A stretch of DNA of 43,187 nt from an uncultured Prochlorococcus sp. (GTDB lineage Bacteria; Cyanobacteriota; Cyanobacteriia; PCC-6307; Cyanobiaceae): the NCBI GenBank assembly GCA_902536545.1, contig CACAXS010000008.1, positions 1 through 43,187 of the forward strand. Direction: 5' to 3'. Made by a program: the position numbers and the translations under genes. Under the pieces are notes generated by a model. The model worked only from the letters and a program-made list of their open reading frames with translations, did no database searches and had not been told where the DNA came from. Below, piece by piece: positions 25,942 through 39,992 of this stretch. Position 1 is the stretch's first letter. Every line of letters starts with the position of its first letter.

Positions 25942-26598
25942 CTAGTTTGTTTGCATTGATGCGACCTCTTCAGCAAAGTCCATCTGATTTTTTTCGATAC
26001 CTTCACCCAATGTATATCTTGTAAAGCGTCTCACTTTGATATTTTCCCCAATTTTTGCAGCTGCTTGTTTAACAAGATCCTCAACTGTTAGAGAACTATC
26101 TTTAATGTAGGGTTGTGAAAGCAAAACAAGCTCATTAAGTCTTTTTGCTATTCTCCCTTCAACTATTTTTTCTTTAATTTGTTCTGGTTTTCCAGATAAA
26201 TCATCCCTACCCATTTCAATCTGCTTTTCTTTTTCCACAACATCTTCTGGTATTTCATCAATTGATACATACTCAACATTTGGGCATGCTGCTACTTGCA
26301 TTGAGACATCCTTCAACAGAGATTGGAATATATCACCTCTAGCAACAAAGTCAGTTTCACAATTTAACTCTAGTAAAACTCCGACTCTTGATCCAGTATG
26401 TATATAACTACCAATTGAGCCTTCGGCCGCTACTCTTCCCGACTTCTTTTCAGCACTAGCTATGCCTTTCTTTCTTAACCATTCCAGAGCTTTATCTAGA
26501 TTTCCTTCAGTTTCGTTAAGTGCTCTTTTGCAGTCCATCATTCCTGCACCAGTTTTGTCTCTAAGATCTTTTACAAGTTTTGCTGTAATGTTTCCCAT
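25942..26598 (-). CDS. tsf: Translation elongation factor Ts
   Basis: 218 residues, the short cyanobacterial/chloroplast-type EF-Ts (E. coli has 283). It exchanges GDP for GTP on EF-Tu. The N-terminal UBA-like domain reads [23 protein letters not shown]. The core begins [34 protein letters not shown], with the conserved TDF segment that contacts EF-Tu. The coiled-coil module of the long form is missing, as expected. It is 44 nt after rpsB in the usual rpsB-tsf order. Confidence 0.97.
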
Positions 26599-26642: not shown

Positions 26643-27347
26643 TTAATTTTTTCTTTCGGCATTAGAGCCCTTTCTACCCTCATTTATGGCATCTGCAAGT
26701 CTTCCTAAAATAAGTTGCACAGATCTAACGGCATCATCGTTACAAGGAATTGGAACTTCGCACAAATCCGGATCGCAATTTGTATCTAACATTGATACTA
26801 ATGAGATATCTAATTTTCTAGCTTCTAATACTGCATTAGATTCTCTTCTCTGATCAACCAATACAACCACATCTGGTAATCTTCTCATACCCTTAAGTCC
26901 ACCTAAGTATTTTTGTAATCTTTCAAGTTCTCTCCTTAATACTGCAGCTTCTTTTTTAGGCCTCATTGCTATTGAACCACTACTTTCCATTCTTTCTAAA
27001 TCCTTTAATCTTTCAATCCTAGCTTTCATTGTTGTCCAATTAGTCAACATCCCTCCAAGCCATCTTTGATTTACATATGCAGCTCCACAGCGTGTAGCTT
27101 CCTGAGCTACTACATCTGATGCTTGTTTTTTTGTACCGACAAATAGGAAACGTTTACCGCTTTTTGCAGCGTTTCTCGTCCATTTATATGCATTGTTCAT
27201 ACACAATGCTGTTTTTACAAGATCAATAATATGAACTCCATTTCTCGCGCAATATATATACTTAGACATCTTGGGATTCCAACGTCTAGTTTGGTGTCCA
27301 AAATGGGCACCAGCTTCCATCATTTCTGATAGCGATACAACAGCCAT
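26643..27347 (-). CDS. rpsB: 30S ribosomal protein S2
   Basis: 234 residues. The start [24 protein letters not shown] and [26 protein letters not shown] and [12 protein letters not shown] segments are universal S2 blocks. S2 is assembled late on the 30S subunit near the 16S 3' side. No Shine-Dalgarno sequence lies at the usual spacing: the 12 nt between the leader structure and the ATG are CCTTTTTAAATT. The leader carries an interleaved pair of stems (27360-27423) likely to control expression of rpsB and tsf. Confidence 0.97.
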
Positions 27348-27359
27348 AATTTAAAAAGG

Positions 27360-27423
27360 GTTTCGGGTTAGCCTCCATCTGACGGGGAATTAATATTAAA
27401 AATTCACCCGAAACTGTCAGATG
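27360..27423 (-). ncRNA. Candidate rpsB leader pseudoknot (cis-regulatory RNA)
   Basis: Read 5' to 3' on the minus strand: S1 arm CATCTGAC (27423-27416), A, S2 arm GTTTCGGGT (27414-27406), a 22 nt AT-rich segment that can itself fold (GAATT with AATTC), S1 partner GTCAGATG (27383-27376), a 7 nt linker GAGGCTA, and S2 partner ACCCGAAAC (27368-27360). Both stems (8 and 9 bp) are perfect and interleaved, as in an H-type pseudoknot; alternatively they are mutually exclusive folds. S2 ends 12 nt before the rpsB ATG and is followed by CCTTTTT. A GGAGG lies at 27376-27372. Ribosomal S2 leaders in gammaproteobacteria use a pseudoknot for autoregulation; equivalence here is inference. Confidence 0.7.
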
Positions 27424-27442: not shown

Positions 27443-27448
27443 ATCCTA
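27443..27448 (-). promoter_or_regulatory. Candidate -10 box for rpsB (TAGGAT)
   Basis: TAGGAT on the minus strand would start transcription near 27436, giving a leader of about 90 nt that includes the whole interleaved stem element. There is no convincing -35. The glycosyltransferase gene upstream ends at 27477, leaving room for a promoter. Confidence 0.4.
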
Positions 27449-27476: not shown

Positions 27477-28388
27477 TTATCTTGATTTAGTTAACTGTTT
27501 AATGTAAATCATATTTAGAGGGATCCTAAGAACCTCAAGTGCAAGTCTATTTCTTCTTATATTTACTAGGAATCTTAATAAAGGAAGGATTCTATCAACA
27601 CTGATTAGTCCTCCCAAGCAAAGAATTTGCCAAAGTAAATTATGGAGAGGAGTTAATTGAATCATAAATCTAACCCTTAAATTTGGGTGTTTCTTATAAA
27701 AAACTAAAGCCATTTTTGCTCTCTCTTTTTCTTGAGCTATTAATGAATCTATTTGTTCGCAATTAAATGACGGATGCCAATGAAAACCTACTGCATTTGG
27801 GCATTTAATTAATTTTGTCCCAATTTTTTTTAATCTTTCTCCAAGTTCTAAATCCTCCCAACCGTAAAGACTAAAAGAAGTATCAAATAATCCCACACTT
27901 AAAATTAATTCTTTTGATATCGCGACATTCCCAGTAGCAAAGTATGCAAAAGAAGTGTCCATTATTTTATGTTTTTCACTCTGAGGATTTAGAAAATTAG
28001 ATGTATTGACTACAGAGCCATAGGTAAAACATTTTTTATCATTTTTTCTCCAAGAGGTAAGTAATTTTTCTACGTGGCAATTTATAAAATTGTCTAAAAC
28101 AATAAGATCACTATCAATGAATATAATAATTTCGTATTTTGATTTAATTACTCCTAGATTTCTTCCAAGTGCAGGCCCTCCATGTTCTTGCTGAAATAGA
28201 ATAACGTGTGGGAGATTGGGTTTGTTTTTATTTATCCATGAAGTTGTCCCATCAGTTGATCCATCATCAACAACTATGACTTCATAATTACTGATATTTT
28301 TATTTAATTTTTGATTCTCAAGCGCAAAGAGACATTTCTCTAATATAGGTAATCTATTGTAAGTCGGTATAACAATACTTACATCCAT
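27477..28388 (-). CDS. Family 2 glycosyltransferase
   Basis: 303 residues, GT-A fold. The N-terminus VSIVIPTYNRLPILEKCL and VIVVDDGSTDGT are the nucleotide-sugar binding segments. IIIFIDSDLIV has the DxD-like metal site. YGWEDLELGERLKKIG has the catalytic ED pair seen in GT2 and GalNAc-transferase-like enzymes. The C-terminal third is basic and amphipathic (RFLVNIRRNRLALEVLRIPLNMIYIKQL) and may associate with the membrane. It probably adds a sugar to a lipid or surface glycan; donor and acceptor cannot be predicted. It is upstream of rpsB on the same strand but 129 nt away. Confidence 0.88.
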   Translation of the reverse strand: MDVSIVIPTYNRLPILEKCLFALENQKLNKNISNYEVIVVDDGSTDGTTSWINKNKPNLPHVILFQQEHGGPALGRNLGVIKSKYEIIIFIDSDLIVLDNFINCHVEKLLTSWRKNDKKCFTYGSVVNTSNFLNPQSEKHKIMDTSFAYFATGNVAISKELILSVGLFDTSFSLYGWEDLELGERLKKIGTKLIKCPNAVGFHWHPSFNCEQIDSLIAQEKERAKMALVFYKKHPNLRVRFMIQLTPLHNLLWQILCLGGLISVDRILPLLRFLVNIRRNRLALEVLRIPLNMIYIKQLTKSR

Positions 28389-39474: not shown

Positions 39475-39912
39475 ATGAGTAAAAAAGAAACAACTAATCC
39501 TAAAGAAGTTAGAAATCAAAACTATGAAGCCAAGAAAATGAATACTTCCGAAAACTTTAAGAAAAAGAAAGATAAGGATCTTCCATGGTGGGTAGAATTA
39601 TTATTTGTTCAAATAGGATTACCAGATAAATTACTAATAAAAATATTAAAAGCCCAAAAAACATCTAAAGAATTTATTAAAAATGAAAACAAATCAATAA
39701 TAATATTTTTGTTTGTAATTACTACATTGGCATATTTTTATCCAGTTATTAAACATGCAAAAAATAAATTAGATTGCGAAGCGATGGCAAGAAATTATAT
39801 TATTAAAAATAAAAATATAATCGGAATCAATAATAGGGAAATAAAAATGATATCTACAAATTTTTGTTATGGTGGCGAGGAAATCTATGAAATAGAAAAT
39901 TTAAAAAATTAA
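39475..39912 (+). CDS. Hypothetical membrane protein, 145 residues
   Basis: A charged N-terminus, a possible amphipathic segment (LPWWVELLFVQIGLPDKLL, about residues 36-54) and a clear membrane span at about 74-92. The C-terminal domain is likely outside and has two Cys (LDCEAMARNYI and STNFCYGGEEIY). The composition is AT-driven, Lys/Asn/Ile rich. Not recognised. Part of the small-gene run. Confidence 0.55.
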   Translation: MSKKETTNPKEVRNQNYEAKKMNTSENFKKKKDKDLPWWVELLFVQIGLPDKLLIKILKAQKTSKEFIKNENKSIIIFLFVITTLAYFYPVIKHAKNKLDCEAMARNYIIKNKNIIGINNREIKMISTNFCYGGEEIYEIENLKN

Positions 39913-39992
39913 ATTTTCATTATTCTCTACAAATAAGCATCTCAATATTATGATATTAACTTTAAATTTAATAAAATTTAAATTTTATTCCT

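Follow-up and report, generated by a model that had tools for sequence, protein, structure and literature searches.

Introduction

Ribosomal protein S2 of Escherichia coli, assisted by S1, represses translation of the rpsB-tsf messenger by a mechanism that has been called unclear, and the ribosome binding site is reported to lie outside the operator (PMC10931766). Does an operator of the same kind stand before rpsB in Prochlorococcus, where the leader of this gene carries two interleaved stems capable of forming a pseudoknot? The leader considered here lies in a window of 43,187 nucleotides, the whole stretch of DNA that was analysed, from an uncultured Prochlorococcus sp. (contig CACAXS010000008.1). 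The stems had been noticed from the sequence alone in what we call the original prediction.

Structured RNA upstream of the S2 gene has been described before. Meyer et al. reported the rpsB motif, including its pseudoknot, in 2009 and named Cyanobacteria among the hosts (PMC2704228), P2 being absent or very short in that phylum, and a structured element in the rps2 5'UTR of Synechocystis and Microcystis (cluster 394) was predicted in the same year (PMC2662882). At the level of Cyanobacteria, both publications run counter to the earlier supposition that no such leader had been described for this lineage. Table 1 of PMC1242208 names leaders of other ribosomal protein operons of Prochlorococcus and Synechococcus, rpsB not being among them, and our literature search found neither a study of ribosomal protein feedback in Prochlorococcus nor experimental data on the rpsB leader of the window. 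We argue herein that the element is most likely the form that the rpsB motif takes in Prochlorococcus, functioning as an S2-responsive operator in the leader of the rpsB-tsf mRNA.

Architecture of the rpsB leader

The predicted gene context is borne out by Pfam matches to Ribosomal_S2 and EF_TS (Table 1), and the assumed lineage by the titles of the closest named rpsB loci, of which 78 of the best 80 say Prochlorococcus. Read on the minus strand, the leader has the order CACA-CATCTGAC-A-GTTTCGGGT-22 nt-GTCAGATG-GAGGCTA-ACCCGAAAC-12 nt-ATG. Two perfect interleaved stems of 8 and 9 bp are thus found where the original prediction had placed them, and the sequence confirms the lengths it had given for the loops (1, 22 and 7 nt) as well as its 12-nt gap to the ATG; nested folds also return the small hairpin that it had proposed within the 22-nt loop.

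Table 1. Positions of genes, leader segments and the putative promoter element in the window.
Feature	Position	Strand	Remarks
tsf, elongation factor Ts	25942..26598	minus	Pfam PF00889 EF_TS, E 1.6e-35; 44 nt 3' of rpsB
rpsB, ribosomal protein S2	26643..27347	minus	Pfam PF00318 Ribosomal_S2, E 3.6e-91; ATG starts at 27347
Pyrimidine/A-T linker to AUG, 12 nt	27348..27359	minus	without Shine-Dalgarno
Pseudoknot stem b, 3' arm (b') ACCCGAAAC	27360..27368	minus	perfect pairing; ninth pair G-C
GAGGCTA between a' and b'	27369..27375	minus	with the preceding G, conserved GGAGG
Stem a (P1), 3' arm (a') GTCAGATG	27376..27383	minus	perfect pairing; stem covariation
CCC in the 22-nt loop	27386-27384	minus	potential partner of the GGG in arm b; conserved
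22-nt loop	27384..27405	minus	small hairpin GAATT...AATTC (P3), nested folds
Pseudoknot stem b, 5' arm GTTTCGGGT (J2-3 region of Meyer et al.)	27406..27414	minus	93.4% of cells paired
Single A between arms a and b	27415	minus	
Stem a (P1), 5' arm CATCTGAC	27416..27423	minus	double-sided changes at 7 of 8 pairs; 96.8% of cells paired
-10-like hexamer TAGGAT, within TTGCTAGGAT	27443..27448	minus	pattern match in relatives
Glycosyltransferase gene	27477-28388		other flank of the rpsB leader

Upstream of the stems, an extended -10-like pattern, picked post hoc with the sequences already viewed, occurs in all 39 leaders of the window's genus, 18-20 nt 5' of stem a (4.4 in mononucleotide shuffles). 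It recurs in 54 of 54 leaders from other genera of the family and in 21 of 23 from outside it, where shuffles lead one to expect 8.8 and 2.0, respectively. The TAGGAT hexamer would set the transcription start about 10-15 nt upstream of stem a, and transcription probably begins just downstream of this conserved hexamer.

Are the stems due to chance?

In an AT-rich leader, complementarity may arise by accident. From 100 first-order Markov sequences, one would expect a strand of 43 kb to contain 0.08 interleaved perfect pairs of 8 and 9 bp with loops of this kind, while a scan of the minus strand of the window returned two places, the rpsB leader and 39981-39905. The expectation is probably too low, because interleaved pairs of 7 and 7 bp number 24 and 20 on the real strands versus 7.0 expected, about three times as common as modelled, which favours the chance explanation to some extent. 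So does the nested fold of the whole 145-nt leader, whose stability is ordinary (z -0.17). The 60-nt core is unusually stable (z -2.78), with 1 of 200 shuffles as good. As to the second site (39905-39981, minus strand), its arms contain A and T only, so its pairs are probably a matter of low complexity. What speaks against accident is conservation of the stems across families together with the covariation of stem a, where 47 cells carry double-sided changes against 12.3 in shuffles (see below); the latter refutes chance complementarity, and we give this explanation practically no weight.

Conservation and covariation in relatives

We compared 116 cyanobacterial rpsB leaders, comprising 39 of the window's genus (window included), 54 of other genera of its family and 23 of other families of the class. 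They consist of all 56 rpsB matches of one search and of 60 picked from 186 matching genomes, about one per genus among the matches listed plus second members; the genera absent from this sample include g32, g47 and g67. The leaders are mutually related, so that a tally of sequences does not give the number of events; the 93 family leaders amount to 32 distinct stem rows. Positions for stem a and the pseudoknot core were found in every one of the 116 leaders, a result that is partly by construction, since the search anchor was the element's own ACCCG/GGAGG-like 3' part. The registers of three leaders (L044, L048 and L052) were set by hand, and L044 retained its automatic register in the counts of the -10 pattern, GGAGG, T-run, Shine-Dalgarno, ninth pair and CCC.

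Both stems are kept across this collection, and GGAGG, formed by the segment between a' and b' and its preceding G, persists in 38 of 39 leaders of the genus, 53 of 54 of the other genera and 18 of 23 outside the family, as well as in the E. coli leader. The spacing between P1 and the knot arm is 0-3 nt in nearly all leaders, i.e., P2 is absent or very short. Outside the family (L031-L053), the loop from the knot arm to a' spans 11 to 107 nt with the core kept, and one of these leaders, L049, carries an additional insertion at the place of P2, in between stem a and the knot arm.

Covariation was assessed in a structure-blind alignment of 27 of the 116 leaders, picked for short loops. In stem a, 96.8% of the cells are paired versus 77.0% in shuffles, with double-sided changes at seven of the eight pairs, and in this alignment the P1 helix covaries strongly. 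For the knot, 93.4% of cells are paired versus 88.5% in shuffles, and none of 500 shuffles matches it in any of five measures. Its double changes affect four of nine pairs, all within the outer four. When the knot partners are slid by +1, only 53.5% of cells pair, and double changes are found at 4 pairs and in 9 cells, the true register having 4 and 8. There is hardly any variation of the knot inside the family, for which reason shuffles cannot test it there (300 of 300 equal it). Given that the slid register equals the true one on double changes and that the family knot is nearly invariant, the pseudoknot is supported mainly by conservation, its covariation being modest. The covariation test proposed for both stems was therefore strongly positive for stem a and less so for the knot, and the pseudoknot claim as such is upheld by the knot being conserved throughout the 116 leaders and by pairing in excess of shuffles.

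The comparison also bears on a second idea of the original prediction, namely a transcription attenuator in which stem b and the following T-run form an intrinsic terminator and stem a acts as antiterminator. CCTTTTT does follow b' directly in the window, and within the genus TTTT occupies this place in 31 of 39 leaders, but in only 1 of 54 from the other genera and 1 of 23 from outside the family, where the stems are kept nonetheless. Moreover, stem b would have to enclose a 37-nt loop, and the sole terminator-like site of our scan is a different hairpin (27423-27405) of low G-C. Because the T-run is a habit of an AT-rich genus that its relatives do not keep, we hold a terminator switch to be very improbable. 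A better candidate for an alternative fold would be the predicted pairing of the GGG of arm b with the CCC beside a'.

Relation to the rpsB motif and to the E. coli operator

The window element lies directly upstream of rpsB and has P1 covariation, a pseudoknot and a short or absent P2. It therefore resembles the rpsB motif (PMC2704228), with which it shares the position upstream of rpsB, the long P1, the P3 hairpin, the short or absent P2, and a pseudoknot formed by J2-3 and the 3' extension that follows P1. The motif is described with five pseudoknot pairs outside Firmicutes, whereas nine are possible in the window leader. Cluster 394 is likewise a conserved structured element before the S2 gene; it belongs to Synechocystis and Microcystis, not Prochlorococcus, and the passages on it mention no pseudoknot (PMC2662882).

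The Rfam search proposed earlier gave a divided answer: the whole window yielded no match at the gathering threshold, and the E. coli family t44 (RF00127) matched the window leader below threshold, with 26.2 bits (E 0.00099 for 221 bases) where the curated cut-off is 44 and the E. coli leader scores 83.5 bits. At genome scale, just one of 194 cyanobacterial genomes, not the window's own, had a t44 match at E <= 0.001, and none of the 194 reached the cut-off; among five other cyanobacterial leaders there was one match (L033, E 0.012). A control genome, that of Thermotoga maritima, also has a t44 match below the cut-off. Cyanobacterial members are thus missed by the t44 model and hence unannotated.

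Since t44 came to E <= 0.001 in just one genome, we built a model, R1, from cyanobacterial leaders only, 27 of the 116 picked for short loops (A1/R1). R1 matches the E. coli leader end to end with 29 bits (E 2.6e-6 for 43.5 kb; R1 E-values are rough), and CACACA, stem a, GUGGAGGC and AACCC align in register. Run against 291 genomes of the class, several of which had supplied its leaders, it matches 242 and gives no match in the other 49, two of which (G039 and G121) do have rpsB matches. In the five genomes where it was compared with rpsB coordinates (G000, G015, G176, G195 and G248), the match ends 3-5 nt before rpsB. The likeness to t44/tff of E. coli extends to CACAC before P1, GGGUG, GUGGAGGC and AACCC, which keep their order and register; E. 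coli has an AGAGG about 13 nt past the AACCCC of the knot, whereas the window leader has no such AGAGG and scores under the family cut-off. What the sequences show, then, is that the conserved blocks recur, with their order unchanged, in the rpsB leader of E. coli.

Taken together, an S2 operator is favoured by several lines of evidence: placement in 116 of 116 leaders, covariation of stem a and a knot that beats 500 of 500 shuffles; the reciprocal t44 and R1 matches with the E. coli operator and the presence of R1 in 242 of 291 genomes; the repression of E. coli rpsB-tsf by S2 (PMC10931766) and the published occurrence of the motif in Cyanobacteria (PMC2704228); and the competing pairing predicted in all 93 family leaders, described below. 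Counted against it are the t44 score far under the cut-off, with 1 of 194 genomes at E <= 0.001, the weakness of knot covariation by the slide control, and the 49 of 291 genomes missed by R1. A conserved structure might instead set basal translation or mRNA stability with no response to S2. Our literature search found no reports of binding or regulation for cyanobacterial rpsB leaders, and with Shine-Dalgarno absent the structure could simply position the ribosome; but it has conserved blocks in common with the S2 operator of E. coli, which occupies the equivalent position ahead of rpsB, and this makes the explanation an unlikely one. On the operator reading, a documented kind of S2 operator would now be placed in Prochlorococcus.

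Traits of the family

Three traits set the family leaders apart. Firstly, a Shine-Dalgarno-like 4-mer after the knot core occurs in 0 of 93 family leaders versus 23 of 23 outside. The original prediction was right that none sits at normal spacing, but this is also the rule in the window, where 1 of 22 ATG open reading frames of at least 165 aa, with start codons taken as mechanically listed, has such a 4-mer at -18 to -4. The idea that Shine-Dalgarno loss is special to rpsB is not supported by this count, nor by the report that Prochlorococcus likely does not rely on Shine-Dalgarno (PMC5607370). Secondly, the ninth knot pair is G-C in 92 of 93 family leaders versus 1 of 23 outside (L043). Thirdly, CCC or ACCU stands just before a' in 91 of 93 family leaders (exceptions L059 and L068) versus 1 of 23 outside (L048); among leaders from the family's other genera, the C residues at -2 and -3 from a' are 98-100% conserved, as against 38-50% at -7 to -10.

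The third trait provides a partner for the knot arm. When b' is omitted, folding predicts for each of the 93 family leaders that the GGG of this arm pairs with the loop, at a mean probability of 0.97-0.99; outside the family, 13 of 23 leaders have a comparable predicted pairing, the mean probability being 0.55. Those 13 leaders speak against a competing pairing exclusive to the family; by the fold predictions, the pairing is fixed and strengthened there. In the window, the nested fold has a predicted energy of -17.2 kcal/mol, the fold with the arms free -9.7 and the knot stem, treated as a duplex, about -13. By these energies, the nested and knot states are too close to rank once the pseudoknot penalty, which they leave out, is counted.

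The core element is known, and what looks new is the three family traits only. In our literature search, lost Shine-Dalgarno, ninth G-C pair and competing GGG partner were not found described, and the text on the rpsB motif, compared here by its wording, makes no mention of a lost Shine-Dalgarno or of CCC beside a' (PMC2704228).

A possible mode of action

If the leader acts as an S2 operator, transcription would start shortly upstream of stem a, and stem a and the GGG-CCC pairing would form first in the nascent RNA. As b' emerges, the knot could replace GGG-CCC, and surplus S2, perhaps with S1, would bind and stabilise the folded core. The b' arm, ending 12 nt before the AUG, would then lie within the ribosome footprint and hinder loading, and synthesis of S2 and EF-Ts would fall. 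In E. coli the operator reportedly excludes the ribosome binding site and its mechanism is called unclear (PMC10931766), so that occlusion by b' is our own inference.

As Shine-Dalgarno is absent, the knot is one G-C longer and the GGG partner is conserved beside a', the family leader may flip between a nested fold with b' free and the closed knot. We tentatively suggest, as a possibility that is more doubtful than the operator itself, that the family rebuilt an ancient S2 operator for Shine-Dalgarno-free initiation by losing the Shine-Dalgarno, gaining the G-C pair and fixing UCCC/UACC beside a' as a mutually exclusive partner for the GGG(U) of the knot. S2 would in that case tip a two-state refolding towards the knot and would have no Shine-Dalgarno to cover. 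An RNA regulator shared with E. coli would have persisted after the adjacent Shine-Dalgarno was gone, and S2 control without Shine-Dalgarno masking becomes testable.

One family member (L059, 158-245) departs from the pattern: its knot arm is weakened (ACTCG, with a G-U pair) and CTT replaces CCC beside a', as if both partners of the GGG had drifted together.
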